Shown: positions 1-15,011 of the stretch, in pieces
Position numbering within the stretch: the stretch's first letter is position 1
Layout: every line of letters starts with the position of its first letter
NCBI GenBank assembly: GCA_902614975.1
Contig: CACMND010000003.1
Coordinates: 62,001 to 126,000, forward strand
From: an uncultured Pelagibacteraceae bacterium
GTDB taxonomy: Bacteria > Pseudomonadota > Alphaproteobacteria > Pelagibacterales > Pelagibacteraceae
Reading direction: 5' to 3'
Length of the DNA stretch: 64,000 nucleotides
Translations under genes and position numbers: made by a program
The notes under the pieces: generated by a model
Told to the model about the DNA's origin: nothing
The model's input: the letters and a program-made list of their open reading frames with translations, nothing else
Databases searched by the model: none

Positions 1-783
1 TGGTATAAAGCGCACACTGATAATCTTAATGTAAAAATATCTGACCCTGACGTTTGGGTAAGTCAAATTCAAGGACCAAAATCTATGGATCTTTTAAAAG
101 TTTTAAGTAAAGAAACTTTTCCTGAGAATTGGAAATATTTTGATTGGAAAGAAATAACTATACTAAATGAAAAGGTAATCATAAGTAGATCAGGTTTTAG
201 TAATGAACTTGGTTGGGAAATTTATTTTAGAAAAAATAATAATACTGAAAAAGTTGGGGATTACATACTTGAGGAAGGAAAAAAAATGGGAATGATACTT
301 ACAGGGACCCCTGGTTTCAGATGTAAAAGAATAGAATCTGGATTATTATCAGCTGGCCAAGACTTTAACCATGAAACAAATCCATATGATGTCGGGTTAG
401 GTAAGTATGTCGATTTAAAAAAAAATTATTTTATTGGAAAATCAGCATTGATGACTGCCGATAAAGAAAAAAGATGTTGGGGAATACGAGTAGAAAATGG
501 AACAGGTTTAAAAGGAACTTACATAAAATTTAATAATGAAGTAATTGGAAAAATTACATCAAGTACCTGGTCTCCTTTTCAAAAATGTGGTGTTGGAATA
601 GTTTTAATGAATTCTACAAAACATAAACCAGGATTAATAGTGGATGTTAGTTGCAATGATAATAAAATTAATAAAGGTGAGATATGCGCCTTACCAATGT
701 ATGACTTTAAAAATGAAATTGTAAGAGGTTTAAAAATCGATATTCCAACAGGTCCTTCTCCGTGGTCAGGAATAAAAAAATAA
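1..783 (+). CDS. GcvT/DmdA-family aminomethyltransferase-like protein, 5'-truncated
   Basis: The frame is open from base 1, so the N-terminus lies upstream of the window; the track's Met at base 85 is internal. The visible part begins just before an IQGPKS motif and runs through SGFSNELGWEIYF, the PGFRCKRIESGLLSAGQDF segment and the FIGKSAL segment, which are the hallmarks of the folate-binding GcvT fold. The final barrel domain (VIGKITSSTWSP) is intact. This family moves one-carbon groups from amino or sulfonio methyl donors to tetrahydrofolate. The arrangement parallels the DmdA-like gene at 4692, but sequence identity between the two looks modest, so substrates probably differ. It overlaps the next gene by 22 nt, implying one operon. 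The substrate cannot be named from the sequence. Confidence 0.8.
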   Translation, partial: WYKAHTDNLNVKISDPDVWVSQIQGPKSMDLLKVLSKETFPENWKYFDWKEITILNEKVIISRSGFSNELGWEIYFRKNNNTEKVGDYILEEGKKMGMILTGTPGFRCKRIESGLLSAGQDFNHETNPYDVGLGKYVDLKKNYFIGKSALMTADKEKRCWGIRVENGTGLKGTYIKFNNEVIGKITSSTWSPFQKCGVGIVLMNSTKHKPGLIVDVSCNDNKINKGEICALPMYDFKNEIVRGLKIDIPTGPSPWSGIKK

Positions 784-1457
784 TAATAGCAATTGGTGGT
801 GGTGGATTTACACATTCTTCTGACGAAGACTTGGATGAATATGTAATAAATCAAGTTAATAAATCAAAAATCAATATCGGTTTTTTACCTACAGCTAGCA
901 ATGATAATCAAGAAAAAACCGATCTTTTTTATAAAAGATTTAAATCAAAAAAATTTAAATTATCTCATTTTAATCTCTGTTCAAGTGTGGAAGGTTTTAA
1001 TGAATGGTTGTTAAACAAAGATATAATTTATGTGGGAGGTGGTAATACCTCTGACATGATTAATATTTGGAAAAGACATAATCTTATCAAAGTCTTTAAA
1101 GATGCATATGAAAAAGGAATAATTCTGAGTGGAATAAGTGCAGGAGCTGTTTGTTGGTTTGATTGGATATTATCAGATTCAGTTAATAAAGAGTTGAGTC
1201 CATTAAAAGGAATAAATCTTTTAGATGGAAGTTGCACACCACACTCATCAGATAATAATCGACTTCGACAATTTATTTCAGAAATTAAAGATGGAAATTT
1301 GCCAGATGGAATAGCTATTGATGATGGTGTAGCTGTGCTTTTTATTGACGGAGTTCCTTCAGAGGTTTATTCTTCAAGAATAAATCACGACGCTTATTAT
1401 GTGACTAGACATGATAAGATAAGTTTAAAAACATATATAAAAAATTTAAATGGATAA
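762..1457 (+). CDS. Peptidase E-like serine peptidase (family S51)
   Basis: A 231-residue cytoplasmic protein. The GISAGAVCW segment is the S51 nucleophile elbow with the catalytic Ser, and the later TPHSSDN stretch carries a plausible catalytic His. IYVGGGNT is the glycine-rich loop typical of the family. S51 enzymes cleave Asp-X dipeptides (PepE) or cyanophycin dipeptides. The start is GTG at 762, inside the end of the upstream GcvT-like gene, and the stop overlaps the next ATG by 8 nt, so it is translated as part of a compact operon of metabolic enzymes. In this setting it may hydrolyse an aspartyl or other small amide rather than general peptides; that is inference. Confidence 0.8.
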   Translation: MVRNKKIIIAIGGGGFTHSSDEDLDEYVINQVNKSKINIGFLPTASNDNQEKTDLFYKRFKSKKFKLSHFNLCSSVEGFNEWLLNKDIIYVGGGNTSDMINIWKRHNLIKVFKDAYEKGIILSGISAGAVCWFDWILSDSVNKELSPLKGINLLDGSCTPHSSDNNRLRQFISEIKDGNLPDGIAIDDGVAVLFIDGVPSEVYSSRINHDAYYVTRHDKISLKTYIKNLNG

Positions 1458-2610
1458 TATTAAAGCCAGTAACAAAATTTTTAGCATTGAAGATGCAAAA
1501 AAACTATCGAAGAAAAGATTACCAAAGCTAGTTTATGATTTTATTGATGGTGCATCAGGAGATGAAAAATTATCAGAAATTAATAGTTTTGCTTTAGATC
1601 AAATACGTCTTGAGCCAAGAGTTCTAAGAAATGTAGAGGAAAGAAAACTAAAAAAAAATATTCTTGGATTTAACTATGATTATCCTTTTGGTTTTGCCCC
1701 AATGGGCATGACAAATCTTTCATGGCCAGGTGCAGACTCTATGCTGGCAAAAGAGAGTGCAAGAAATAATATACCAACTTGTGTATCGATGGCTTCAACA
1801 ACTACCTTAGAAAAAATGTATGAGCTTTCAGAAGGTCATTCATGGCTTCAACTTTATATTTTTCAGGATGAAGCTTTTGTCATGGAATTGCTCGATAGAG
1901 CAGAAAAAACTGGTTATGAAGTTGCTATACTTACTGTTGATGTTCCGGTTTTATCTAGGAGAACTAGAGATGATAAAAATGGATTTTCATATCCATTTAA
2001 AATTGGACCTAAACAATTTTTTGATTTTGCAACTCATCCAGTTTGGTCAATATCTACATTACTTAATGGAATACCAAAGCCAATGAACTACGAAACTTCA
2101 AAAAGTGGAAAAGGTATTTTTAAAAGAAAAGAAAGTAGAGGAAGAACAGATTGGGAAACTCTAAAAAGAGTAAGAAATAAATGGAAAGGCAAATTAATTG
2201 TAAAAGGTGTCATGTCATCTGATGATGCAGTTAAAATTAAAGAAATGGGTGCTGATGCTATTCAAGTTTCAAATCATGGAGGTAGACAATTAGATAGTGC
2301 CTCAGCAGCAATAAATATTTTACCTTTTATTAGAGAGGCAGTAGGAAATAATTTTCCAATTATTTTTGATAGTGGAATAAGAAGTGGAAGCGATATTGTA
2401 AGATCATTAGCTTTAGGTGCAGATTTTTCAATGATTGGAAGACCTGTAATGTATGCTATGGGAGCTGATGGAGCTAGCGGGCTAAGAAGAATTGTGGATA
2501 TAATTAAAGAAGAAACTAGCACAACACTAGGTTTGGTTGGATTAAATGATATTAATGAAGTTTCTTCTGATATAATTGAACAGAAACTTTTTATGAATAC
2601 AACTTACTAA
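1450..2610 (+). CDS. FMN-dependent alpha-hydroxy-acid oxidase/dehydrogenase
   Basis: At 386 aa it has the usual length of the LldD/glycolate oxidase/mandelate dehydrogenase family. The active-site signature SNHGGRQLD (His base and Arg) lies near residue 275, followed by the FMN phosphate-binding segments IIFDSGIRSGSDIVRSLALGAD and IGRPVMYAMG. These enzymes oxidise (S)-2-hydroxy acids to 2-oxo acids on FMN. The ATG lies inside the previous gene's end, and the ThDP enzyme starts 1 nt after the stop. Coupling to a ThDP enzyme suggests the 2-oxo acid formed here may be the next enzyme's substrate, or that the ThDP enzyme's hydroxyacyl product is oxidised here. The substrate is not identifiable. 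Confidence 0.85.
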   Translation: MDNIKASNKIFSIEDAKKLSKKRLPKLVYDFIDGASGDEKLSEINSFALDQIRLEPRVLRNVEERKLKKNILGFNYDYPFGFAPMGMTNLSWPGADSMLAKESARNNIPTCVSMASTTTLEKMYELSEGHSWLQLYIFQDEAFVMELLDRAEKTGYEVAILTVDVPVLSRRTRDDKNGFSYPFKIGPKQFFDFATHPVWSISTLLNGIPKPMNYETSKSGKGIFKRKESRGRTDWETLKRVRNKWKGKLIVKGVMSSDDAVKIKEMGADAIQVSNHGGRQLDSASAAINILPFIREAVGNNFPIIFDSGIRSGSDIVRSLALGADFSMIGRPVMYAMGADGASGLRRIVDIIKEETSTTLGLVGLNDINEVSSDIIEQKLFMNTTY

Positions 2611-2611
2611 T

Positions 2612-4351
2612 ATGGAAAAAAAAATAAGAGGTGGAGCATTAATTGCAAGAGCATTAAAAGATAAAGGTATTAATAAAGTTTTTACGCTATCAGGTGGATT
2701 TTGTAATCCTGCAATTGAAGGATTCATGGAATGTCAAATTGATGTAGTTAATTGTCCTCATGAACAAATAGCTGGACACTTAGCAGATGGACACACAAGA
2801 ATTACAAGAAAACCATCAGTATGTTTAGTTGGACCTGAAGGTTTTGCAAATGCAGTACCATCAATGATGGAAGCATGGGGAGAAAGAACACCGATAATTT
2901 ATATAACTGGATCAAGTAGTTTAAAAAGACAAGGCTCAGGTGGCTTTAAAGAAATTGATGATGTTTCAATAGCTGCTCCTCTTACAAAATATAGCGCAAG
3001 CATTACAGATGGAACAAGAATTAGAGAATTTGTTGATAAAGCTTACAGAATTGCAACGAATGGATATCCTGGGGCTGTTCATCTAAGTTTACCAGTGGAT
3101 ATAATGTTTTCTTCATTTGAGGAAAATGTTGGACTTGAAGAAAGACCATTTTCACATAAAGCAAAGCCAGTTGCTAAAGCATGGCCAGATCCAAATGCTC
3201 TATCAAAAATACTTGGGCTAGCGTGTAATGCAAAAAAACCAGTCATAATTGGAGGTCATGGTGTTTGGTGGTCAAACTCAGAAAAAAATTTAGAAAATGC
3301 AGGTGAAAGTTTAAATATTCCAGTTTTTAATGTGCCTTACCATCAAAAACTTTTAGGAGAAGAAGCAAATGCATATATGGGTTTAGCAGATATTCACCAA
3401 TATCCACCTTCAGAATTTGCATTACATAACTCTGACTTAGTTTTAATGATTGGCGCAAGGTTAGATAACCAAATGAATTTTGGTAACCCACCTTTCATTC
3501 CAAAAACAACAACTTTAGTTTGTATTAACGGTTCCCACGAAGAAATTGAGTTTAATAGAGCAGCTGATCATAACCTTTTATGTGATCCAGGAGTATTTTT
3601 AGACACTCTATGTAATCTGAAGAAAAATAATAAATGGAATTTAGGAAATAGTTGGTTTCAAGATAATAAAAATAGAAAAAAAGATTGGGTGGATAAATCT
3701 TTAAATGAATTAAAAATTGAAGCAGATAAAGCCAAAAAAAATGGTGGAAAAATTCATCCGCTACAATTAGCGTTAGATGTTCAAGACGCAATGGATGAGA
3801 AAGATTGGCTTGTAATTGATGGAGGAAATACTCATTTCTGGTCGGAGATTGCAATAAATTTAGCTGGAGCTCGAGGAAAAAAATTGGGTGGAATTTTACA
3901 TCCAGGCACATTTAGTATGCTGGGTGTTGGTGTATCATTTGCATTATCTGCAAAAAATAATAACCCTAAATCGAATGTAATTTTAATTAGTGGAGATGGT
4001 GCCTTTTTATCTGGAGGCATGTCTATAGAAACTGCATTTTTTGAAAAGAAACCAATCGTTGTTGTTATTGACAATAATGGTGGCTTAGCATCAATTGGGC
4101 AACAACAAGAAAGATTATTTGAAAGCGGAAAAAGAGTTGCAACAGACTTTAGAGATATACCTTTCCACAGTATATTTGAAGGCTTTGGGGGTCATGGAGA
4201 ATTAGTTACGAAAAGGGAAGAATTGGGTCCAGCACTAAAAAGAGCTATTGCGAGCGGTAAAACTGCTTGTGTAAATGTAAAAGCTAAACCAGTATTAAGT
4301 CCAATTGTTGCTGCTGTGGCCAGCAAGAGAGAGAAATCGTCAATAGAGTAA
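2612..4351 (+). CDS. Thiamine-diphosphate-dependent enzyme, acetolactate synthase-like superfamily
   Basis: At 579 aa it has the three-domain (PYR, central, PP) layout of the ALS/POX/decarboxylase family. The N-terminal domain has the ThDP-activating Glu in CPHEQIAGHLADG. The C-terminal domain has the ThDP/Mg motif starting GDGAFLSGG and ending IDNN. The intact Glu argues against glyoxylate carboligase, which lacks it. Members include acetolactate synthase, 2-hydroxyacyl-CoA lyase, sulfopyruvate or benzoylformate decarboxylase and sulfoacetaldehyde acetyltransferase. There is no small regulatory subunit nearby, so biosynthetic acetolactate synthase is unlikely. It sits 1 nt after the FMN oxidase and 1 nt before the transthyretin-like gene. 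The exact reaction is unknown. Confidence 0.8.
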   Translation: MEKKIRGGALIARALKDKGINKVFTLSGGFCNPAIEGFMECQIDVVNCPHEQIAGHLADGHTRITRKPSVCLVGPEGFANAVPSMMEAWGERTPIIYITGSSSLKRQGSGGFKEIDDVSIAAPLTKYSASITDGTRIREFVDKAYRIATNGYPGAVHLSLPVDIMFSSFEENVGLEERPFSHKAKPVAKAWPDPNALSKILGLACNAKKPVIIGGHGVWWSNSEKNLENAGESLNIPVFNVPYHQKLLGEEANAYMGLADIHQYPPSEFALHNSDLVLMIGARLDNQMNFGNPPFIPKTTTLVCINGSHEEIEFNRAADHNLLCDPGVFLDTLCNLKKNNKWNLGNSWFQDNKNRKKDWVDKSLNELKIEADKAKKNGGKIHPLQLALDVQDAMDEKDWLVIDGGNTHFWSEIAINLAGARGKKLGGILHPGTFSMLGVGVSFALSAKNNNPKSNVILISGDGAFLSGGMSIETAFFEKKPIVVVIDNNGGLASIGQQQERLFESGKRVATDFRDIPFHSIFEGFGGHGELVTKREELGPALKRAIASGKTACVNVKAKPVLSPIVAAVASKREKSSIE

Positions 4352-4352
4352 A

Positions 4353-4688
4353 ATGGCAAAATTTAGCTCACATTTATTGAATGGTTCTGATGGAAATCAT
4401 GCAAGCAACGTCAAAGTAAAGATTTATCAAATACAATCCTCAAAATTAAAAAAACTTTTTTTGAATACAAAGACTGATGTAAATGGTAGGATTACTCAGC
4501 ATTTCAATCTTAACAAAAAAGATTGTAAATGCGATTATGAAATGATTTGTGATATTAAAAGATACTTTAAAAAGAAAAAAATTGTGGGTGAAATAGTCAT
4601 AAAATTTAAAATGACCGATAATAAAAAAAATTATCACTTACCAATAATAATTTCTCCTAACAGCTATACAGTGTGGTGGTCAAAATAA
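4353..4688 (+). CDS. Transthyretin-like protein, divergent 5-hydroxyisourate hydrolase family
   Basis: A 111-aa protein matching the HIU-hydrolase/transthyretin fold in order: an N-terminal SSHLLNGSDG stretch (equivalent to the catalytic-His segment S-x-H-x-L-D), a GRI segment (catalytic Arg region) and the C-terminal YHLPIIISPNSYT strand (second catalytic His). The family's terminal Y-R-G-S tetrapeptide is replaced by WWSK. True HIU hydrolases act in urate breakdown, but no urate oxidase, OHCU decarboxylase or allantoinase is visible here. It sits between a ThDP enzyme and a DmdA-family protein with 1-3 nt gaps, so it may hydrolyse a different cyclic or lactone substrate. The fold call is fairly secure; the function is not. 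Confidence 0.65.
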   Translation: MAKFSSHLLNGSDGNHASNVKVKIYQIQSSKLKKLFLNTKTDVNGRITQHFNLNKKDCKCDYEMICDIKRYFKKKKIVGEIVIKFKMTDNKKNYHLPIIISPNSYTVWWSK

Positions 4689-4691
4689 TAT

Positions 4692-5855
4692 ATGGCTTCA
4701 TTGATACAAAGCAAAATTAGCACAAAACTAAATATGTCTAGGAGAATAAGAAGAACTCCTTACACCAAGAGAGTTGAAGAATGTGGTGTAACTGATTTTA
4801 CTGTTGTAAATCATATGCTCTTACCAAAAAGATTTCAGAAATCTGTTGAGGATGATTATTGGCATTTAAATGAACATGTTCAGCTATGGGATGTTTCTTG
4901 TCAAAGACAAGTTCAGATATCAGGTCCAGACGCTAGTTTATTAGTACAAAAAATGACACCAAGATCATTAAAAAATATGGAGACTGGAAAATGTTTTTAT
5001 ATTCCTATGATAGATGAAAATGCTGGAATGATAAATGATCCAGTGTTGTTAAAGTTAGATGATGATATGTTTTGGATTTCAATAGCAGACTCTGATGTAT
5101 TGCTTTGGGCAAAAGGTATTGCAGTTGGTTTAAATCTAAATGTGAGCATAATAGAACCAGATGTATATCCTCTTGCAGTGCAAGGTCCAAAGTCTGAAGA
5201 TTTGATGGCATCAATATTCGGAGAAGATATTAGAAAATTAAAATTTTTTAATTTTAGAATATTTGATTTTTTAGGAACTAAACAAGTTATTGCAAGATCA
5301 GGATATAGCAAACAAGATGGATTTGAGATTTATTTTAAATGCTTTGAAGATTACTTTGACAAAAATGAAATTGGAGAAAAAATTTGGGATATAGTATGGA
5401 AAGCGGGGAAAGAATTTAACATTGCTCCAGGATGCCCAAATTTAATTGACAGAATAGAAGCGGGATTAATGTCATATGGAAATGATTTTACAAAAGAAAA
5501 CAATCCAATTGAATGTAACTTAGAAAAATATTGTAATTACGAAAGCGATCACGATTTCATCGGAAAAAGTGCTTTAGAGAAGATTAAGAAACAAGGTGTA
5601 AAACAAAAATTAAAAGGAGTATTGTTTGATGGTCTAGATTGTCCTCCATGTTCAATTCCTTTTCCGCTATATTCAAAAGATAAGAAATTAATTGGTAAAA
5701 TTACCTCAGGGATTTATTCTCCAAAATTCAAAAGAAATATTGGTTTATCCATGATTTTAAATGAATTTTGTGAAATAGGGTCAGAAGTTTTAGTGCACAC
5801 TCCAGATAACAAATTAAGAAAAGGAATTGTGTCCTCTTTACCATTTTCAAAATAA
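4692..5855 (+). CDS. DmdA-family (DMSP demethylase-like) folate-dependent methyltransferase
   Basis: A 387-aa full-length GcvT-fold protein. The N-terminal RRIRRTPYTKRVEECGV, HVQLWDV, IADSDVLLWAKG, AVQGPKSEDLM, ARSGYSKQDGFEIY and PGCPNLIDRIEAGLMSYGND segments resemble dimethylsulfoniopropionate demethylase more than glycine-cleavage GcvT. DmdA transfers a methyl group from DMSP to tetrahydrofolate, giving methylmercaptopropionate. No dmdB, dmdC or dmdD is adjacent; the neighbours are a ThDP enzyme, a transthyretin-like protein and a thiolase, so it may be a paralog acting on another methylated compound. The start at ATG 4692 is 3 nt after the previous stop; MSRR fifteen residues in is an alternative start. 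Confidence 0.75.
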   Translation: MASLIQSKISTKLNMSRRIRRTPYTKRVEECGVTDFTVVNHMLLPKRFQKSVEDDYWHLNEHVQLWDVSCQRQVQISGPDASLLVQKMTPRSLKNMETGKCFYIPMIDENAGMINDPVLLKLDDDMFWISIADSDVLLWAKGIAVGLNLNVSIIEPDVYPLAVQGPKSEDLMASIFGEDIRKLKFFNFRIFDFLGTKQVIARSGYSKQDGFEIYFKCFEDYFDKNEIGEKIWDIVWKAGKEFNIAPGCPNLIDRIEAGLMSYGNDFTKENNPIECNLEKYCNYESDHDFIGKSALEKIKKQGVKQKLKGVLFDGLDCPPCSIPFPLYSKDKKLIGKITSGIYSPKFKRNIGLSMILNEFCEIGSEVLVHTPDNKLRKGIVSSLPFSK

Positions 5856-5878
5856 TAATTAGTGGATATAAGTCTTAT

Positions 5879-7003
5879 ATGAAAAGAGCAGTTATAGCAG
5901 GATATTCGAGATCACCTTTTACAATGGCAAGAAAAGGTGAATTAATTGACGTTAAGCCTGTAAATATGTTTGCCGAGGTTGTTAAAAATCTTGTATCTAA
6001 AACAAAAGTAAATCCTGCTGATATTGAAGATATTGTTGTTGGTTGCGCATTTCAAGTTGGAGAGCAAAGTTTTAATATTGGGAAACTTACAACATTTTTA
6101 TCTGGAATGGAAATACATACATCTGGAATGACCGTCGATAGATGGTGTGGTTCATCTATGGAAGCTATTCATGTTGCAGCTGGTAAAATAGCAATGGGCG
6201 CAGGTAAAGTTTTTGTGTGCGGAGGTGTTGAAAGTATGACTAGAGTTACGACTGGATTTGAACCAATACCCTATCCTTACACAGATAAAGAAAATCCAAA
6301 TGTTTATTTTTCAATGGGTATAACTGCTGAAAATGTTGCGAAGAGATATAAAATTTCAAGAACTGAACAACAAGAGTTTGCAATTCAAAGTCATCAAAAA
6401 GCTAATGAAGCTGAAGTTAATGGTAAATTTAAAAGCGAAATAGTTGAAATTGCTGGCTGCACAAAAGATGGAAATATACGTCCAAAAAGTAATCAAGAGA
6501 CTCTAGATGGACTAAAACTTGCATTTGATCAAGAAGGAACTGTTACTGCAGCAACATCATCCCCTCTTACCGATGGAGCAGCAGCAACATTGATATGTGA
6601 AGAAAGCTATGCAAAAGAAAATGGTTTAGAGATTTTAGCTAGAATTGTTTCAACTGGAGTTAAAGGATGTGAACCAGATGTAATGGGACTTGGACCTATA
6701 GGAGCAACTAAGAAAGCATTAGAGAGAGCAAATTTATCAATTAATGATATCGATATTGTAGAGATTAATGAAGCTTTTGCTTCTCAATCAATAGCATGCT
6801 TAAAAGATCTTGGTATCGATCAAAAGAAAGCTAATTTGGATGGTGGAGCGTTAGCTCTAGGACACCCTCTAGGAGCAACAGGAGCTAGAATTACTGGCAA
6901 AGCTGCTGATTTGCTTAGACGTGAAAATAAGAAATACGCTTTATCTACTCAATGCATCGGTTTAGGTATGGGTATTGCGACTGTAATCGAGTCGGTAAAT
7001 TAA
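5879..7003 (+). CDS. Thiolase (acetyl-CoA C-acyltransferase)
   Basis: The 374-aa protein has all three thiolase motifs: nucleophilic Cys in VDRWCGSSMEA, the His-containing NEAFASQSIACL and GGALALGHPLGATGAR, and the C-terminal CIGLGMGIA with the second Cys. It either degrades 3-ketoacyl-CoA or condenses two acetyl-CoA. It is the last gene of the first forward run, 23 nt after the DmdA-like gene, and abuts the convergent potC with no gap. It could recycle acetoacetyl-CoA arising from the acetoacetate predicted for the carnitine cluster at 30-33 kb, or close the unknown pathway encoded just upstream; neither link is shown by the sequence. Confidence 0.9.
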   Translation: MKRAVIAGYSRSPFTMARKGELIDVKPVNMFAEVVKNLVSKTKVNPADIEDIVVGCAFQVGEQSFNIGKLTTFLSGMEIHTSGMTVDRWCGSSMEAIHVAAGKIAMGAGKVFVCGGVESMTRVTTGFEPIPYPYTDKENPNVYFSMGITAENVAKRYKISRTEQQEFAIQSHQKANEAEVNGKFKSEIVEIAGCTKDGNIRPKSNQETLDGLKLAFDQEGTVTAATSSPLTDGAAATLICEESYAKENGLEILARIVSTGVKGCEPDVMGLGPIGATKKALERANLSINDIDIVEINEAFASQSIACLKDLGIDQKKANLDGGALALGHPLGATGARITGKAADLLRRENKKYALSTQCIGLGMGIATVIESVN

Positions 7004-7858
7004 TTATCTATTAATTCCTCTTAAACGTTCTGATCTTCTTCTTAATAATTCAGCACTTATCAATATTAAGGTCGATAAAACAATTAAACATGTAGCAACT
7101 GCTAGAATTGTAGGACTTAATTGTTCTCTTAAACCTGTCCACATTTGAATTGGAATAGTTGTATTTTCAAGACCAGCTAAAAATAAAACGACTACAACTT
7201 CATCAAAAGAAGTTACAAAAGCAAACAAACCTCCTGATATTACTCCAGGTAAAATCAACGGAAGTGTTACTTTCATAAATGTATTTACTGGGTTACTGCC
7301 TAAACTAGCTGCCGCTCTTGTTACACTATGATCGAAACCTGATAATGTTGCAGTAACAGTAATTACAACAAAAGGTGTTCCCAAAATTATATGAGCTAAA
7401 ACTATTCCTGTATGAGTTGCCGCTAAACCTGCTTTTGCCATAAAAAAGAATATTGCAACACCTGAAATAATAAGTGGAACTATCATTGGTGAAATCAAAG
7501 TTGCCATTATTATTCCTTTAAAGGGCATGTGTCTGCTGCTCAATCCTAATGCAGCAACCGTTCCTAAAATTACTGACCCTAAAGTTGCAAATATAGCAAT
7601 AATAAAACTATTCTTTGCAGCAAGACCCCATGGGTTCTTTGTACCGTAAACCATATCTTTGTACCATCTTAATGAAAAAGCATCTGGGTCTAAATTCTTC
7701 ATTCCTTCTGAAAAAACAAGAAACTCTTCTGCATTAAATGATAATGGAAATATTACAAACAAAGGTGCTATTAAAAAAATAAAAACAAAAGTACATATGG
7801 CAATGTAAAAGTAGTGCCAAATTCTATATCTAGTTTCTGTATACTTTGGTAATGCCAT
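7004..7858 (-). CDS. potC: Polyamine-type ABC transporter permease PotC
   Basis: The 284-aa inner-membrane protein has about six hydrophobic segments and the ABC permease EAA loop (RAAASLGSNPVNTFMKVTLPLILPG), which docks onto the ATPase. The N-terminal transmembrane segment is followed by a long periplasmic stretch containing FSLRWYKD, typical of PotC. It follows potB by 1 nt, in the order potA, potD, potB, potC on the minus strand. The family imports spermidine/putrescine, but related alphaproteobacterial systems import other cationic or zwitterionic solutes, so the substrate is tentative. Confidence 0.85.
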   Translation of the reverse strand: MALPKYTETRYRIWHYFYIAICTFVFIFLIAPLFVIFPLSFNAEEFLVFSEGMKNLDPDAFSLRWYKDMVYGTKNPWGLAAKNSFIIAIFATLGSVILGTVAALGLSSRHMPFKGIIMATLISPMIVPLIISGVAIFFFMAKAGLAATHTGIVLAHIILGTPFVVITVTATLSGFDHSVTRAAASLGSNPVNTFMKVTLPLILPGVISGGLFAFVTSFDEVVVVLFLAGLENTTIPIQMWTGLREQLSPTILAVATCLIVLSTLILISAELLRRRSERLRGINR

Positions 7859-7859
7859 A

Positions 7860-9122
7860 CTAACCTAACTTAATATTATCAACTCCAACTAATTTATTAT
7901 AAAGCCAATAGATAACCAAAACTCCTCCAAGCAACATAAGCCCCATCGCTGAAGCAAAACTCCAATCTAAAGTAGTTTTCATATGATATGCAATTTGGTT
8001 ACTAATTAAGGTTCCTGATGCTCCGCCAACTAAAGCGGGTGTGATGTAGTATCCAATTGCTAAAATAAAAACTAAAAGACACCCAGCCCCGATACCTGGT
8101 ATGGTTAATGGAAAATATACTTTCCAAAAAGCCACAAAAGGTGTTCCGCCAAGAGATTTACCTGCTCTCATTAAACTTGGCGAGATAGTTTTCATCACAC
8201 TGTAAAGTGGTAAAACCATAAATGGTAATAGAATTTGAGTCATAGCAACATAAGTTCCGACTTTGTTGTACATCATTTCTGGCCTATTATCGTCTGACAC
8301 AAGGCCAATCAATACAAAGAAATCATTAACTACTCCTTGCTGTTGAAGCAAAATCATCCAGCTAGCTGTTCTAACTAATAACGACGTCCAAAACGGAAGA
8401 AGAACACAAATCATTAATAAATTACTATACTTCATTGGAAGTGTTGCTAGTAAATGGGCTATTGGGTAACCCATTAAGAAACAGAATACAGTAACAAAGA
8501 AAGCAACCTCTACAGTTCTCAACCATAAAATTCTATGTATTCTTCTATCTTCACTAACTTGAGTAATTTTGTTATCTTCATTCAAATACATATCCATAGC
8601 TTTTAAATATTTAGCTGAAGTGTAAGGAGGTGCAGTCCTTTTAATAGCTTGCCAATATTCTACATTTCTCCATCTCTTATGAACTTTCATTATTTGTTCT
8701 TTAATACTTTGTGTCTCGTCAATTTTATTTCTTTTTACCTGTCTGAATAATTTTTTTGTGATGGTGTTGAACCCATTTTTTTCTTTATTAAGTCTTTGAG
8801 CTAGTTTTCCATGTTCTTTTTTTTCTACAAGAATTTTAAAATCAGATAAAAATGAAGCAAATACTTCTTCAGATGGAAGTTCTTTACCGTCCCATGTCTC
8901 CATAGACTTAAATGTTTTTGGAAGCATGTTTGTAATCATTTTATCATCAATGCTTCTTGTAAACATTTCCCCGATTGGAAAAATATAGGTGATAATCAAA
9001 AAAAGTAATAATGGAGCAACAAGTAGAAATGCTTTAATTTTGTTTTTCCTTTCAGCCTTTTTTAAGCTTATCTCTAAAGGAATTCCGTCAGTTGTAAGTA
9101 TTTGTTTTGTTTCACTGCTCAT
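7860..9122 (-). CDS. potB: Polyamine-type ABC transporter permease PotB with a large periplasmic insertion
   Basis: At 420 aa it is longer than E. coli-type PotB (about 285 aa). The extra length is a charged insertion of roughly 130 residues between the first membrane segment (AFLLVAPLLLFLIITYIFPIG) and the next one near residue 205. The core carries the EAA loop (RAGKSLGGTPFVAFWKVYFPLTIPG). Extended versions like this occur in alphaproteobacterial polyamine-type permeases, so I do not read it as a fusion artefact. A rho-independent hairpin separates it from potD, and potC follows after 1 nt. Confidence 0.85.
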   Translation of the reverse strand: MSSETKQILTTDGIPLEISLKKAERKNKIKAFLLVAPLLLFLIITYIFPIGEMFTRSIDDKMITNMLPKTFKSMETWDGKELPSEEVFASFLSDFKILVEKKEHGKLAQRLNKEKNGFNTITKKLFRQVKRNKIDETQSIKEQIMKVHKRWRNVEYWQAIKRTAPPYTSAKYLKAMDMYLNEDNKITQVSEDRRIHRILWLRTVEVAFFVTVFCFLMGYPIAHLLATLPMKYSNLLMICVLLPFWTSLLVRTASWMILLQQQGVVNDFFVLIGLVSDDNRPEMMYNKVGTYVAMTQILLPFMVLPLYSVMKTISPSLMRAGKSLGGTPFVAFWKVYFPLTIPGIGAGCLLVFILAIGYYITPALVGGASGTLISNQIAYHMKTTLDWSFASAMGLMLLGGVLVIYWLYNKLVGVDNIKLG

Positions 9123-9128
9123 AAATAA

Positions 9129-9155
9129 AAAGGGCGACTTAAAAAAGTCGCCCCA
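9129..9155 (-). terminator. Intrinsic terminator/attenuator between potD and potB
   Basis: GGGCGACTT (9132-9140) pairs perfectly with AAGTCGCCC (9145-9153) across a 4-nt loop. Read on the minus strand, the hairpin is followed by TTTTTATTTAT. It lies downstream of potD and upstream of potB in the same operon, so it probably terminates most transcripts after the binding-protein gene and lets a fraction read into the permeases. Confidence 0.8.
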
Positions 9156-9189
9156 TATATATTATATTATTCTAGTCTTTTATACTCTT

Positions 9190-10305
9190 TTATAGACCAG
9201 CTTTCATAGCTTCCCACTTCTCACCAAGTTCTGTACCGTTATCAGCCCAGAAAAATGGATCAACTAAAAAGTATTTTTTAGTATTTGCAGGAGCAGTTGG
9301 CATTTGTGGCATCATTTCAGTTTTACCATCTTTGTACCAAGGCTCATTTGCTTTGATAATTTCTAGAGATGATAATCTGTATGGAGCATATGCAATATAT
9401 TTAGCGCTTCCAGCTAACATTTCAGTGTTAGTCATCATCGCTAAAGCCTTTTTAGCATTTGCTTCATCTGGTCCACCTTTTACAAGTGCGAAATATTCAT
9501 AGTCAAGACCTTGTCCATCCCATACTTGTTTAATTGGAGCACCTTCACCAACTTCAGCATTAAAGAATCTTCCATTCCAACCAGTTGCCATAACAACTTC
9601 ACCAGATACTAATAATTCTGGTGGTTGAGCACCTGCAGACCAGAATACACATCCGCCATTTGGATCTGTGCAAAGCTCTTTAATTTTGTTCATAGCTCTA
9701 TTAACACCAGCTTCAGTTTCTAGTAATTTGTAGATCTCTGATCCACCTTTACCCATGTAAACTCCGTCACCAGCTAATGCTATTTCTAGGTTTGTTAGAG
9801 CAGATTTATAAATTGCTCTTTTTCCTGGAAATTTTTTAGTGTTAAAGAAATCTTTTATAGTCGATGGTGTGCCGTCAACATTGTTTACGTTGTAAGCATA
9901 GTTCCAAGAATATAAAATGTTTCCTACAGCACATTTACTTGGCATTGGAGCAAAGAAATCTTCACTTGCAGGTGTTCCGTCTGGAGCTGCAGGGAAGTCT
10001 TTGTCAAAATCGAATTCAACGAAAATTCCTTCGTCACATCCGTTGATAGTATCAAATGCGAATACATCGATAATATCCCAAGTAATAGCACCTGCTTCTT
10101 TTTGAGCTTTTATCTCAGATAATCCACCTGAATAGTCTACCCAGTTGATATCAACACCAAGAGCTTTTGCAGTTGGATCACCATACCCTAATTTTTGAGA
10201 CTCTGTATAAGCTCCACCCCAAGATGCTACTGTAACCGCAAATGCAGATGAAGTTATTGAAAGAGCAAAAGAAAGAGCAAGTAATAATTTACTTAATTTT
10301 TTCAT
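9190..10305 (-). CDS. potD: Periplasmic polyamine-type substrate-binding protein PotD
   Basis: The 371-aa protein starts with a clear signal peptide (MKKLSKLLLALSFALSITSSAFA) followed directly by the VTVASWGGAYTESQ strand typical of PotD-class extracellular solute-binding proteins. It captures the ligand in the periplasm for PotBC-PotA. A strong GGAGGA ribosome site sits 5-6 nt before the ATG, consistent with high expression. Aromatic and acidic residues expected for a cationic ligand are present (for example IDVFAFDT, EYFALVKGG), but ligand identity cannot be read off. Neighbouring EutD/EutA-like genes leave open a compatible-solute ligand. Confidence 0.85.
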   Translation of the reverse strand: MKKLSKLLLALSFALSITSSAFAVTVASWGGAYTESQKLGYGDPTAKALGVDINWVDYSGGLSEIKAQKEAGAITWDIIDVFAFDTINGCDEGIFVEFDFDKDFPAAPDGTPASEDFFAPMPSKCAVGNILYSWNYAYNVNNVDGTPSTIKDFFNTKKFPGKRAIYKSALTNLEIALAGDGVYMGKGGSEIYKLLETEAGVNRAMNKIKELCTDPNGGCVFWSAGAQPPELLVSGEVVMATGWNGRFFNAEVGEGAPIKQVWDGQGLDYEYFALVKGGPDEANAKKALAMMTNTEMLAGSAKYIAYAPYRLSSLEIIKANEPWYKDGKTEMMPQMPTAPANTKKYFLVDPFFWADNGTELGEKWEAMKAGL

Positions 10306-10327
10306 TTATCCTCCGTTTAAACGTTTA

Positions 10328-10345
10328 ATATAAATTAATTTATAT
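10328..10345. promoter_or_regulatory. 18-bp perfect palindrome upstream of potD
   Basis: ATATAAATTAATTTATAT is self-complementary and sits about 25 bp upstream of the potD start, beside a second short palindrome (GTTTAAAC). It could be an operator or overlap the promoter. All-A/T composition makes chance occurrence more likely than for a mixed sequence. Confidence 0.3.
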
Positions 10346-10420
10346 AAGCGAAGTACAACAAAATCGTTATTCAGAGTCAACAGGCCATTTTGTTATAGGA
10401 ATACTAGACTATTTGAGAAA

Positions 10421-11506
10421 TTATTTAGGATCTAGGGCTCTAGCGTCTTGACTGTTCCAGCCTACTTTAATTTTATTACCTAATTTTAAATCTAGCTCAT
10501 TTGAGCTGTTTGGAACTTTTAAAATAAATTCTTTATTACCTAAAAGATCTAATCTTACTCTAGTATGATCACCATGGTAGATAACCTCTTCAATCTTTCC
10601 GGTTTGATTATTATCCATTTTATCTTTTGGATTTATTAATGCCCTCTCAGGTCTTATTGAAACTGTTGTTTTGTCACCTTTGGAGTTAACTGATATTGGA
10701 TTAGCTAAAATTTCACCACTTTGTAGTTTAACTTTACAAACATCTTTTGAAATGTCTGTTACTTCTCCACCGAAAGTATTATTTTCACCTATAAACTCTG
10801 CAACGAAAGAATTAACTGGCTCCTCGTATAATTTATCAGGACTTGATAATTGTTGAACCTTTCCATCATTAAACACTGCAATCCTATTTGACATTGTTAA
10901 TGCTTCTCCTTGATCATGTGTAACGTAAACCACAGTAACACCAATATTTTCATGGATGTGTTTAATTTCATATTGCATACTTTCTCGTAAGTTTTTATCT
11001 AAAGCTCCAAGGGGCTCATCCATTAAAACTACTGCTGGATCGAATACAAGAGCTCTTGCAACAGCTACCCTTTGTTGTTGTCCCCCCGACAATTGTGCAG
11101 GCATCCTACTTTCAAATCCTGAAAGAGAAACCATCGACAAAGCTTTATCTACTTTTTTATCAATCTCATCTTTTTGAACTTTTCTTACTCTCAAGGGAAA
11201 TGCTAAATTTTCATAAACTGTCATATGAGGAAACAATGCATAATTTTGAAAAACCATTCCAATTCCTCTTTTATGTGGTGGAATATTTGAAATAGGATTA
11301 GAGTCTAAATAAATTTCACCATTTGTTGGTGTTTCAAATCCAGCTAACATCATTAGACAAGTTGTTTTTCCTGAACCAGATGGGCCAAGCATAGTGATGA
11401 ACTCGCCCTCGGAGATATTAAGATTTAAATCTTTTACTACTAAGACTTTACCATCGTAACTTTTGTCAACTTTATCAAACTTAACGAATTCTGTATTTTT
11501 AGACAT
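10421..11506 (-). CDS. potA: Polyamine-type ABC transporter ATPase PotA
   Basis: The 361-aa ATPase has Walker A GPSGSGKTT, signature LSGGQQQRVAVARAL, Walker B VLMDEPLGALD and a C-terminal TOBE-like domain (from about residue 240) typical of PotA/MalK-type subunits. I chose ATG 11506 over the TTG one codon upstream used by the ORF track. It is the first transporter gene on the minus strand, 38 nt downstream of the EutD-like gene, so the hydrolase, racemase-like protein and transporter may be one transcription unit. Confidence 0.88.
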   Translation of the reverse strand: MSKNTEFVKFDKVDKSYDGKVLVVKDLNLNISEGEFITMLGPSGSGKTTCLMMLAGFETPTNGEIYLDSNPISNIPPHKRGIGMVFQNYALFPHMTVYENLAFPLRVRKVQKDEIDKKVDKALSMVSLSGFESRMPAQLSGGQQQRVAVARALVFDPAVVLMDEPLGALDKNLRESMQYEIKHIHENIGVTVVYVTHDQGEALTMSNRIAVFNDGKVQQLSSPDKLYEEPVNSFVAEFIGENNTFGGEVTDISKDVCKVKLQSGEILANPISVNSKGDKTTVSIRPERALINPKDKMDNNQTGKIEEVIYHGDHTRVRLDLLGNKEFILKVPNSSNELDLKLGNKIKVGWNSQDARALDPK

Positions 11507-11544
11507 CAAGTGTTTAAAACATTTAAGAAGTTAATTATCAATAG

Positions 11545-12717
11545 CTAATAGTTCTTTATATGTAGCTCTTTTGGAAAATTACAGAACAATTCACAACCTT
11601 TGTCGGTAACTCGGATTGCTTCAGATGCTTCTACCCCCCAATCACCAAACTGCATTACTGCAATCATATGAAAACAAACATTTGGTTCAAGTACTGTCAT
11701 ATCACCTTTATAAATATTTAAAGTATGCTCTCCCCAATCTGGTGGATATCCGATACCTATTGAGTAACCCGTTCTTGATTTCTTCTCTATACCATATTTA
11801 TCTAAAATTTTCCAAAAGGCTTGGGCAACATCATTTGCTGTATTTCCCGGTTTTGTAGCATCAATTCCAGCTTGTAAAGCTTCTATAGTTTTATTCATTG
11901 TATCTATTTTTAATTGATCAGGCTTACCTAATAAAATTGTTCGAGCCATAGGTGCATGGTATCTTTTATAAACACCTGAAAGTTCAATTATAGTTGCTTC
12001 ACCTTCAACAAATTTATCTTGTGTTGCTGTTAAATGAGAAGCAGATGTGCCTTTTCCAGTTGGAAGAAGCGTTGCAATACTAGAATATTCACCTCCAAAT
12101 TCTTCTGTGCCATAAAACAAAGACTTTTGAATTTCTCCAACAGCATCGCATTGTCTTGTACCAGGTTTAATTACTTCCATTGCGGTTTGCATTCCTTTTT
12201 GAGAAATTAAAGCAGCAGACTTCATATAATTTATCTCTGCATTAGATTTAATTAATCTAGCCCAATTAACTAGTCGATCAGAGTCAATAATGTTTGCATT
12301 TGGTAATCCCTGTTTAATCTTTTCATAACAAAAAGCTGTAAAATAATGAGCATCCATTTCAACTCCAATAGACAGTTTATCCCATTTTTTTTCTTCAATT
12401 ACTTTGGTCAAGTAATCATAGGGATGTTTTGGCCAAGTATGAATATAACTCTCATCATAAACAATAATATTATCTTTATTTAAATAGGTTTTTATGTATG
12501 CCCCACCTGCATCCTGGTCTCTAACAAAGCAAATTGGTTCTTTTGAATCAACATGCACTAATACACATTGTGCATAATAAAAAGACCAAGCATCGTAGCC
12601 TGTAAGATAATTCATGTTATTTGTGTCGTGAGAAATGATTAAATCAATTTTTTTCTCTCTCATCAGAGATTGAACTTTTAATAGTCTTTGTTTGTATTCC
12701 TCTTTTGAAAAAGACAT
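11545..12717 (-). CDS. M24-family hydrolase resembling ectoine hydrolase (EutD/DoeA)
   Basis: The 390-aa protein has the creatinase/prolidase N-domain plus a pita-bread C-domain. The usual M24 metal ligands are not conserved: the D-x10-D region reads ELSGVYKRYHAPMART and the GHGIG His position reads GYSIGIG. Loss of the metal site, together with the KRYHxPxART motif, matches ectoine hydrolases, which are metal-independent members of this family; Glu245 falls near the Glu reported as covalent nucleophile there. An EutA-like gene lies 3 nt upstream, as in ectoine utilisation loci. No EutE/DoeB deacetylase or EutBC is visible, so creatinase-like or another ring-opening or C-N hydrolase activity remains possible. 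Confidence 0.6.
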   Translation of the reverse strand: MSFSKEEYKQRLLKVQSLMREKKIDLIISHDTNNMNYLTGYDAWSFYYAQCVLVHVDSKEPICFVRDQDAGGAYIKTYLNKDNIIVYDESYIHTWPKHPYDYLTKVIEEKKWDKLSIGVEMDAHYFTAFCYEKIKQGLPNANIIDSDRLVNWARLIKSNAEINYMKSAALISQKGMQTAMEVIKPGTRQCDAVGEIQKSLFYGTEEFGGEYSSIATLLPTGKGTSASHLTATQDKFVEGEATIIELSGVYKRYHAPMARTILLGKPDQLKIDTMNKTIEALQAGIDATKPGNTANDVAQAFWKILDKYGIEKKSRTGYSIGIGYPPDWGEHTLNIYKGDMTVLEPNVCFHMIAVMQFGDWGVEASEAIRVTDKGCELFCNFPKELHIKNY

Positions 12718-12720
12718 AGA

Positions 12721-13461
12721 TTAATCAAACAGTCTTCCAAACCCTTTTACAGATTTATTTTCACCTATGTTTTCCAAAGACTCCCATATTAATGCTTGGT
12801 TGCTTGAAAGAACTGGTATTCCAAGTTTATCTTCTAATTTTTGTATCAAAGGTAGAACTGGTAAAGCAGTACAAGATACAAATAAAGCATCTGCTTTACT
12901 TACATCTAAATTTATTAACACATCAAACAGATAATTTTGATCTACTTTTCCAATCTCCATGTCAGAATGAATATCAAAGTATGAATTTGAGGTGATTTCA
13001 AAACCAGACGTTTTAAAGTAATCAACAACATCATCGTTAACTTTTTTACTATAAGGTGTGAATATAGAAAGTTTTTTAATATTTAATTTTTTCAATGCTT
13101 TCAAAGCTGCTGTACTCGGTGTTGAAAGTTTTGCCTCAGGTTTTGCTGCTTGTATTTTATTTTTAATATTATCATATCCCGCTGCTATAGTTCCTGATGT
13201 ACAAGCATATACAACACAGTCTAATTTTTGCTCTGGCAAGATATCTTTTGTTACTTGAGTAATATTCTCTGACATTTTGATCAAATTCTCTTTGGTCAAG
13301 GGGTTGTAACATTCTATTCTATTTACAAAAAAATCAATTTTTTTATCTTTAATTACACTTATAAAATCTTTTTCAATCACTAGGTCGGTTGCTAAAACGA
13401 TAAGTCCAATACGTGGATTTTGGTTATTTTCAAACTTTGGTTCTATTTTTTGTGATTTCAT
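12721..13461 (-). CDS. Asp/Glu racemase-superfamily protein, EutA/maleate isomerase-like
   Basis: At 246 aa, it carries the two catalytic-type cysteines of the superfamily in YACTSGTIAAGYD (about residue 87) and VSCTALPVLP (about residue 195), on two alpha/beta half-domains. Family members include maleate cis-trans isomerase, arylmalonate decarboxylase and EutA of ectoine clusters. It precedes the EutD-like hydrolase by 3 nt, which favours the EutA reading. It starts the minus-strand operon; its upstream region is shared with the divergent aldehyde dehydrogenase. Confidence 0.65.
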   Translation of the reverse strand: MKSQKIEPKFENNQNPRIGLIVLATDLVIEKDFISVIKDKKIDFFVNRIECYNPLTKENLIKMSENITQVTKDILPEQKLDCVVYACTSGTIAAGYDNIKNKIQAAKPEAKLSTPSTAALKALKKLNIKKLSIFTPYSKKVNDDVVDYFKTSGFEITSNSYFDIHSDMEIGKVDQNYLFDVLINLDVSKADALFVSCTALPVLPLIQKLEDKLGIPVLSSNQALIWESLENIGENKSVKGFGRLFD

Positions 13462-13522
13462 AAATACAATATACCACCACTTATTGATTAATCATTAAAA
13501 TTTAAAAACTGCATCTAATTTC

Positions 13523-13552
13523 TTGAATGGTTATAGTAAATAAACGTATAAT
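13523..13552 (+). promoter_or_regulatory. Candidate sigma70-type promoter for the aldehyde dehydrogenase operon
   Basis: TTGAAT (13523-13528) and TATAAT (13547-13552) are separated by 18 bp, and the ATG follows 25 bp after the -10 box. It lies in the 116-bp divergent gap between the EutA-like and aldehyde dehydrogenase genes. AT-richness makes -10 matches common, but the paired boxes at good spacing are better than background. Confidence 0.45.
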
Positions 13553-13577
13553 AAGAAAAATTAATTTTGAAATATAA

Positions 13578-15011
13578 ATGCTTGATAAAAAAAAATTTTA
13601 CATCAATGGCAAATGGGTTGAGCCAGTAAACAAGAATGAATGTGATGTTATTAATCCATCAACAGAAGAAGTTTGTGCAATTATAAGTCTTGGAAGTTCT
13701 GATGATACGAATGCTGCTGTCAAAGCAGCAAAATCCGCATTTGAGACTTGGAAAGAAACTTCAAAAGAAGAAAGACTAAACTTATTAGAAAAATTATTAA
13801 AAATTTATAATTCTAGATGGGATGATATGACTGATGCTATTACTACAGAACTTGGTTGTCCTAAAGATTGGTGTTCAGCTAATCAAACATCTTCTGGCGC
13901 AGGCCATATAGAAGACTTTATAAAAAGATTAAAAGATTTCGAATTCGAGCCAGGTTTTGATAAAGGATCTACTAATCATATTGTATATGAACCAATTGGA
14001 GTTTGCGGATTAATTACACCTTGGAATTGGCCTATAAATCAAATTGCTTTAAAAGTAATTCCAGCTTTTGCTACTGGATGTACAATGGTACTTAAGCCAT
14101 CTGAAATTGCACCATTGTCAGGAATGTTATTTGCAGAGATGATAGATGAGGCTGGATTTCCAGCTGGAGTGTTTAATCTAGTGAATGGTGATGGACCTGG
14201 TGTTGGAACTGACCTGTCAGGACATCCTGATGTTGATATGGTTTCATTTACAGGATCTACTAGAGCTGGAAAATTAATTACAAAGAATGCTGCTGAAACT
14301 ATAAAAAGAGTTTGTCTTGAACTTGGTGGCAAGGGTGGAAATATTGTTTTTGCTGATGCATATCCTGATGCAGTTAGAGATGGCATTAGAAACGTAATGA
14401 GTAATTCAGGTCAATCATGTGATGCTCCAACTAGAATGCTTGTTGAAAAATCAATTTATAAAAGAGCTGTTGAAGAAGCTGCAGATGAAGCAAATAAAAT
14501 TAAAGTTGATCTTGCTTCAAAAGCTGGTGATCATATTGGGCCTGTAATTTCAAAAACTCAATTTGATAAAATTCAAAGTTTAATAAATAGTGGAATTGAA
14601 GAAGGTGCTACTTTAGTAGCAGGTGGTCCTGACAAACCTGAAGATCTAAAGAAAGGTTATTTTATTAAACCAACAGTATTCACTGATGTTAATAATAATA
14701 TGAGAATTGCTAAAGAGGAAATATTTGGACCAGTATTGTCGATTATTCCTTTTGAAAATGAAGAGGAAGCTATCCAAATTACAAATGATACAGAATATGG
14801 ATTAGGAAACTATTTACAAACAGAGGATAATGAAAAGGCAAAAAGAGTCTCAAAAAAATTAAGGTCCGGAATTGTATATGTAAATCATAAAGCAGCTGAC
14901 TCTGGGACTCCTTTTGGTGGGTATAGACAATCTGGAAATGGACGTGAAGGTGGAACCTGGGGATTGCATGAATATCTAGAGGTAAAAACTATTACTGAAT
15001 GGAAAAATTAA
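13578..15011 (+). CDS. NAD(P)-dependent aldehyde dehydrogenase
   Basis: The 477-aa protein has the ALDH motifs: TPWNWP, GSTRAGK (cofactor loop), catalytic Glu in LELGGKGGN, catalytic Cys in SGQSCDAP and the C-terminal GPVLSIIPF. It oxidises an aldehyde to the acid in the cytoplasm. It is divergent from the EutA/EutD-like genes and could serve as an aspartate-semialdehyde dehydrogenase (DoeC role) or oxidise a trimethylaminobutyraldehyde, which would feed the butyrobetaine cluster; both are inference. The next gene starts 1 nt after its stop. Confidence 0.88.
   Translation: MLDKKKFYINGKWVEPVNKNECDVINPSTEEVCAIISLGSSDDTNAAVKAAKSAFETWKETSKEERLNLLEKLLKIYNSRWDDMTDAITTELGCPKDWCSANQTSSGAGHIEDFIKRLKDFEFEPGFDKGSTNHIVYEPIGVCGLITPWNWPINQIALKVIPAFATGCTMVLKPSEIAPLSGMLFAEMIDEAGFPAGVFNLVNGDGPGVGTDLSGHPDVDMVSFTGSTRAGKLITKNAAETIKRVCLELGGKGGNIVFADAYPDAVRDGIRNVMSNSGQSCDAPTRMLVEKSIYKRAVEEAADEANKIKVDLASKAGDHIGPVISKTQFDKIQSLINSGIEEGATLVAGGPDKPEDLKKGYFIKPTVFTDVNNNMRIAKEEIFGPVLSIIPFENEEEAIQITNDTEYGLGNYLQTEDNEKAKRVSKKLRSGIVYVNHKAADSGTPFGGYRQSGNGREGGTWGLHEYLEVKTITEWKN

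Follow-up and report, generated by a model that had tools for sequence, protein, structure and literature searches.

A Conserved Catabolic Operon in SAR11 and Other Alphaproteobacteria That Contains a Paralogue of the Demethylase DmdA

Genes and Organization of the Operon

The window analysed here is a stretch of 64,000 nucleotides (nt) from an uncultured Pelagibacteraceae (SAR11) bacterium, positions 62,001 to 126,000 of the 129-kb contig CACMND010000003.1 in a 1.2-Mb genome. Its first 7,003 nt contain seven open reading frames (ORFs), all on the + strand, and the protein families that a sequence-only reading of this DNA had assigned to them were confirmed from the ORF list with Pfam and NCBIfam profiles. 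We found that these genes form a real, conserved and uncharacterised catabolic operon with a core of four genes, FMNox-ThDP-TTL-DmdAL. The seven genes are listed below (FMN, flavin mononucleotide; ThDP, thiamine diphosphate; HIU, 5-hydroxyisourate; TTL, transthyretin-like protein; DMSP, dimethylsulfoniopropionate; CoA, coenzyme A).

1..783, + strand: GcvT1, a GcvT-like folate-dependent methyltransferase (PF01571 and PF08669; the 3' 260 of 407 amino acids lie in the window)
762..1457, + strand: S51-family hydrolase, a PepE/cyanophycinase relative and satellite gene (PF03575, 122 bits)
1450..2610, + strand: FMNox, an FMN-dependent 2-hydroxyacid dehydrogenase/oxidase, core gene (PF01070, 394 bits)
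2612..4351, + strand: ThDP enzyme, core gene, an unassigned subfamily within the superfamily of acetolactate synthase and 2-hydroxyacyl-CoA lyase (PF02776/PF00205/PF02775)
4353..4688, + strand: TTL, a transthyretin/HIU-hydrolase-fold protein with an altered C-terminus, core gene (PF00576, 71 bits)
4692..5855, + strand: DmdAL, a DMSP demethylase paralogue, core gene (NF009133, 532 bits)
5879..7003, + strand: acetyl-CoA C-acyltransferase-type thiolase, the last gene, in the SAR11 version only (PF00108/PF02803)

The window edge clips GcvT1, whose whole gene (L019:9561-10784) begins 440 nt upstream and encodes 407 amino acids. The junctions between the genes, in order, measure -22, -8, +1, +1, +3 and +23 nt. 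It had been argued from this tight spacing that the products share a pathway. Junctions of 3 nt or less are ordinary in the window, however, being found at 21 of its 46 same-strand and 5 of its 13 opposite-strand junctions, so spacing is weak evidence by itself, and it is the conserved neighbourhoods that uphold the operon and the shared pathway.

Conservation and Distribution of the Core

Neighbouring genes were tallied at 80 SAR11 loci, many of them interrupted by contig ends. FMNox adjoined the ThDP gene at 79 loci, the ThDP gene adjoined TTL at 79, and TTL adjoined DmdAL at 78. The outer pairs were also frequent: S51-FMNox was seen 75 times, GcvT1-S51 70 times, DppA-GcvT1 67 times and DmdAL-thiolase 65 times. 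Among the relatives searched, the operon had a patchy distribution: it was present in 15 of 101 genomes and, counting those of good quality only, in 4 of 23.

Outside SAR11, the ThDP protein was detected at 62-83% identity in four other alphaproteobacterial families, here called f142 (63 of the 100 genomes sampled), f110 (22 of 61), f24 (7 of 150) and f82 (5 of 14), and a 399-genome draw from the phylum yielded one further match, from the same class. We take f110 to be SAR116. One of its 22 carriers has a second ThDP copy (38% identical); in a 23rd genome the sole match is a paralogue of 36% identity. In these two f110 genomes (L208:1344-8051 and L209:9237-16375), GMC oxidoreductase genes occur close to the distant paralogue (36-38%); the first locus also has a DmdA-like gene, and the second a glycine-betaine-type ATP-binding cassette (ABC) transporter, assigned by eye. 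Searches of plasmids returned only matches of 30% identity or less for the ThDP enzyme, and Roseobacter DmdA and more distant paralogues for DmdAL.

The order and strand of FMNox-ThDP-TTL-DmdAL were kept in SAR11, f142, f110, f24 and one f82 genome, and in several of the families that carry the core the genomes are larger and GC-richer. The neighbourhood comparison that the sequence-only reading had proposed gives these four genes as the minimal conserved set. Its grouping of all seven genes as one set did not hold: the thiolase is confined to SAR11, and GcvT1 is replaceable, MttB taking its place in the neighbourhood in f24 and SAR116-type genomes. The thiolase was absent from the non-SAR11 clusters, and a close orthologue was lacking in five of the six SAR11 genomes without a ThDP match. 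In the sixth, the thiolase adjoins the 3' end of a DmdAL gene where the contig breaks off, and the apparent loss of the operon is probably a gap in that assembly. The thiolase is thus specific to the SAR11 version; as a core gene it was ruled out beyond SAR11 and retained for SAR11.

Around the core lies a variable set of satellites: GcvT1, a Dpp-type ABC transporter, a tripartite ATP-independent periplasmic (TRAP) transporter with DctP confirmed, S51, LysR, MttB and Ldh_2. GcvT1, whose nearest solved structures are DmdA (3TFH) and trimethylamine N-oxide demethylase, occurred at SAR11 and f142 loci only, MttB (PF06253, 356-386 bits) at f110 and f24 loci only, and no locus examined had both. 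S51, whose GxSAG and His motifs are kept across the aligned relatives, was present in SAR11, f110 and f24 clusters. PanE-like and FAH-family genes stand beside MttB in relatives, a PhyH gene occurs in the cluster of one f24 genome, and the f142 version (L125:6663-14516) has a homocysteine S-methyltransferase with GcvT1 as well as OsmC and enoyl-CoA hydratase genes. Outward of GcvT1 come an SBP_bac_5/Dpp-type ABC transporter in divergent orientation and a FadB-like gene; the SBP_bac_5 protein came nearest to the NCBIfam models of glutathione-binding and nickel-binding proteins but stayed under their cut-offs. The MttB-family gene of the SAR116-type and f24 clusters recalls the MtgBCD glycine betaine system (PMC12478193). 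SAR11, in contrast, has GcvT1 and no MttB, and MtgC and MtgD did not turn up in the clusters, where no search was aimed at them. As SAR11 lacks the cobalamin-dependent MtgBCDE system (PMC12478193), GcvT1 may be the B12-free stand-in there.

FMNox and the ThDP Enzyme

The catalytic motifs NHGGRQLD (at 275), QLYI and VDVP are present in FMNox, and its nearest solved structures are L-lactate oxidase and (S)-mandelate dehydrogenase. FMNox has Gly in APMGM, a position that is Ala in glycolate oxidase, while Gly is typical of the dehydrogenase-type members. The ThDP enzyme reached the cut-off of none of the 25 best NCBIfam models listed, the nearest being of the acetolactate synthase and 2-hydroxyacyl-CoA lyase types; its solved-structure matches at E <= 1e-50 were oxalyl-CoA decarboxylase / 2-hydroxyacyl-CoA lyase. 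The activating Glu51 was invariant in 23 relatives. Other enzymes of 2-hydroxy and 2-oxo acids (Ldh_2, PanE-like) adjoin the core in relatives. In the mandelate pair MdlB and MdlC (benzoylformate decarboxylase), an FMN-dependent 2-hydroxyacid dehydrogenase is likewise followed by a ThDP enzyme acting on the 2-oxo acid, and (S)-mandelate dehydrogenase is among the nearest structures noted above. However, the ThDP enzyme of the operon stands closer to acetolactate synthase/2-hydroxyacyl-CoA lyase and is not recognised as a benzoylformate decarboxylase, and the operon has methyltransferases and no aromatic-acid genes.

A Transthyretin-Like Protein with an Altered C-Terminus

Structure prediction with AlphaFold2, another check proposed earlier, was confident for TTL (pLDDT, the predicted local distance difference test score, 91.8), with the HIU hydrolase 4q14 as best match (TM 0.88, E 1.4e-9), but the model of the ThDP enzyme was unusable (pLDDT 47.6). 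TTL reached 71.7 bits on TIGR02962, under the cut-off of 87.45. His7, Arg46 and His95, equivalent to the catalytic His9, Arg47 and His98 of HIU hydrolase (HiuH/PucM/YedX), were invariant in 21 sequences. In contrast, the C-terminal YRGS was found in none of the aligned sequences with a complete C-terminus, and the protein in the window ends in VWWSK. Titles of structures in the Protein Data Bank describe HIU hydrolase mutants at the Tyr of the YRGS end (Y116T), including one double mutant in complex with thyroxine (T4), which indicates that changes at this end can re-specify the pocket.

The decarboxylase of 2-oxo-4-hydroxy-4-carboxy-5-ureidoimidazoline (OHCU) was not found in the four SAR11 carriers tested (G000, G004, G039 and G054), nor in G1052; it was present in the other 11 genomes tested, and a separate canonical YRGS HIU hydrolase stands beside it at 6 of the 8 loci examined. 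The loss of YRGS, the missing OHCU decarboxylase in SAR11 and the separate HIU hydrolase elsewhere argue that TTL is not a urate enzyme. We therefore read TTL as a putative neofunctionalised paralogue of HIU hydrolase that keeps the predicted fold and the catalytic His/Arg/His residues.

DmdAL as a Sister Clade of DmdA

DmdAL exceeded the cut-off of the NCBIfam DMSP demethylase model NF009133 (532 vs 410 bits), and its relatives scored 484.5-634 bits. In a tree of 51 proteins, in which the canonical DmdA side includes the Pelagibacter ubique enzyme 3TFH, all 25 DmdAL rows formed one clade (support 99/95) that was sister to canonical DmdA and not inside it. The folate-binding residues are retained in DmdAL (in 3TFH numbering, E204 in 25 of 25 rows and Y206 in 24 of 25), while V32, Q63 and F297 are invariant and specific to it, the canonical enzymes having Y, E and mostly I. 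Trp197 has been reported as key for DMSP in DmdA (PMC7487153). W197Y was tried as a DmdAL diagnostic and rejected: Tyr occurs in 25 of 25 DmdAL rows, yet canonical Roseobacter DmdA rows also have Tyr.

A second, canonical DmdA is encoded elsewhere in the same SAR11 genome, adjoining a DmdB-like ligase, and scores 432 bits although truncated. A second close DmdA also accompanies DmdAL in G261, G772, G902, G933 and G987, so that both forms coexist in SAR11, f142 and f24 genomes. Given this separate canonical enzyme in carriers, DmdAL likely acts on a substrate other than DMSP. Compared with the DMSP pathway (DmdA with DmdB, DmdC and DmdD), the operon uses the same folate-linked demethylase superfamily but has no adjacent DmdB or DmdC; a 2-hydroxyacid dehydrogenase, a ThDP enzyme and TTL stand there instead.

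G313 and G481, two complete genomes of the SAR116 type, encode no close relative of DmdA other than DmdAL (at L126:12318-13433 and L128:7817-8935). Judged by these scores and this tree, NCBIfam-type annotation merges two clades under one enzyme name, DMSP demethylase, and a dmdA annotated in genomes of this kind may be the paralogue. The SAR116 literature disagrees over the distribution of dmdA (PMC12262181, PMC8547437). DmdA/GcvT domains occur at nine places in all in the SAR11 genome of the window; one of them, L114 (G000:C14:9420-10490), encodes another GcvT-superfamily protein of 455 amino acids with 33% identity to DmdAL.

Proposed Pathway and Alternative Explanations

From the observed gene families, conserved order, clade structure and retained catalytic motifs we infer a substrate class, an order of steps and a candidate compound. 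The combination of folate-linked demethylation with cleavage of a 2-hydroxy or 2-oxo acid, conceived in the sequence-only reading, is supported, and the kinship of DmdAL to DmdA shifts the substrate from the cyclic or amide N-methyl donor imagined there towards DMSP-like onium hydroxy acids with a sulfonium-type methyl donor; that interpretation is thus partly supported. Our literature search found no pathway that combines these families and no catalogued match, as had been claimed.

We propose, at close to even chances, that the operon serves the catabolism of a DMSP-like, methylated-onium 2-hydroxy acid. The substrate would be imported by the divergent Dpp-type ABC transporter, or by the TRAP transporter in relatives. 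DmdAL would transfer one onium methyl to tetrahydrofolate, feeding one-carbon oxidation, and FMNox would convert the 2-hydroxy acid to a 2-oxo acid. The ThDP enzyme would then release CO2, or split the C-C bond next to it, with an aldehyde as product, and TTL would work beside this enzyme as a hydrolase whose pocket is altered. GcvT1 (SAR11, f142) or MttB (SAR116-type, f24) would take a further methyl off the same or a related substrate.

The best named candidate, though on its own an unlikely one, is 4-dimethylsulfonio-2-hydroxybutyrate (DMSHB). DmdAL would convert it to 4-methylthio-2-hydroxybutyrate (MTHB), FMNox would give 4-methylthio-2-oxobutyrate, and the ThDP enzyme would yield methional and CO2. 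On chemical grounds demethylation would best come first, since dimethyl sulfide is readily eliminated from a 4-dimethylsulfonio-2-oxo acid. FMNox was also considered as a lactate-monooxygenase-type enzyme that would convert DMSHB directly to DMSP. A case has been made that DMSHB is a prominent compound in the sea, where most of the enzymes that decarboxylate it have yet to be identified (PMC11306096), and a further route of demethylation has been inferred for one or more DMSP analogues (PMC7221440). DsyD, the DMSHB decarboxylase domain of DMSP synthesis (PMC11306096), concerns the same candidate substrate but is a biosynthetic PF04115 protein, and PF04115 was matched by none of the seven operon proteins. 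We saw no naming of this gene cluster in the papers that our search found on DMSHB and DMSP analogues.

Several observations weigh against this proposal. The DMSHB scheme leaves TTL, S51 and the Dpp-type (peptide-like) transporter without a role, and the known work of the MttB family is on quaternary amines rather than sulfonium compounds. The SAR11 thiolase and the FadB-like gene suggest a CoA-linked step that is missing from the scheme. Moreover, three f82 genomes have ThDP-TTL without an adjacent FMNox or DmdAL, their best DmdA-like protein being only 35% identical, which makes ThDP-TTL the most tightly linked pair of all. Two of these genomes have an asparaginase-family gene directly 5' of the pair (e.g. 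L129:9434-12560), an arrangement pointing to use of ThDP-TTL without a demethylase. It is because of the roleless TTL and S51 and the amine-linked MttB that the substrate class is put just short of even and DMSHB well below it.

These same genes are the basis of the first alternative, in which the substrate is an amide or ring N-methyl compound: S51 or asparaginase together with TTL would open an amide or lactam, FMNox and the ThDP enzyme would degrade the freed 2-hydroxy acid, and MttB or GcvT1 with DmdAL would demethylate the nitrogen. It would give a function to the S51 of three families and to the asparaginase-family gene of f82, and HIU hydrolase, whose fold TTL has, opens a lactam beside a hydroxyl carbon. 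The usual cargo of SBP_bac_5 transporters is peptides and compounds like them, and quaternary amines are what the MttB family works on. However, DmdAL is sister to a sulfonium demethylase and not to N-demethylases, and S51 and MttB are absent from several core clusters. Since the S51, asparaginase and TTL families hydrolyse amide-type bonds, the idea keeps a modest share of the probability, and we regard it as improbable as it stands.

Slightly less probable still is plain DMSP demethylation, with DmdAL as another DmdA on DMSP and neighbours that serve other substrates. The NF009133 score and the position of DmdAL as sole close DmdA relative in G313 and G481 would fit it, but they are opposed by the canonical DmdA coexisting in SAR11, f142 and f24 genomes, by V32, Q63 and F297, and by a neighbourhood that has no DmdB or DmdC and a fixed linkage to the hydroxyacid-ThDP module. 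Degradation of urate or methyl-urate (ureides), with TTL as the HIU hydrolase, is very improbable: the fold and the His/Arg/His residues would suit it, but the clusters have no uricase-type gene and a separate YRGS enzyme exists in most of the loci examined, and for SAR11 the pathway was rejected on the missing OHCU decarboxylase and the lost YRGS end. An equally faint prospect, in spite of the close packing common in the window, is that genome streamlining has merely brought together genes that share no pathway. For the core this is contradicted by the recurrence of all four genes, in unchanged order, in five families, of which several have GC-richer and larger genomes; it may hold for the FadB-like gene and partly for the thiolase.

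The proposal of a methylated-onium hydroxy acid has a wider form that we hold to be rather doubtful: an undescribed pathway for an abundant, overlooked onium hydroxy acid (e.g. DMSHB) in SAR11, SAR116-type and other marine alphaproteobacterial families, with a second DmdA-type demethylase and a neofunctionalised HIU hydrolase partnering the ThDP enzyme in a new reaction. If this is true, some of the most abundant bacteria of the ocean would have an additional route for the methylated osmolytes of phytoplankton, and NCBIfam-type dmdA surveys would mix two enzyme clades, DmdAL being the sole close match in two complete SAR116-type genomes. The proposal makes it testable which enzymes demethylate the DMSP analogues DMSHB, gonyol and dimethylsulfonioacetate.

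Genes Adjoining the Operon

The thiolase is adjoined at 7004-15011 by genes for a PotABCD-type ABC transporter, a DoeA-like protein (448.7 bits on the ectoine hydrolase model, cut-off 613), an EutA-like protein (221 bits, cut-off 318) and an aldehyde dehydrogenase. This ectoine-like catabolic cluster, under the curated cut-offs, is syntenic with the operon in SAR11.

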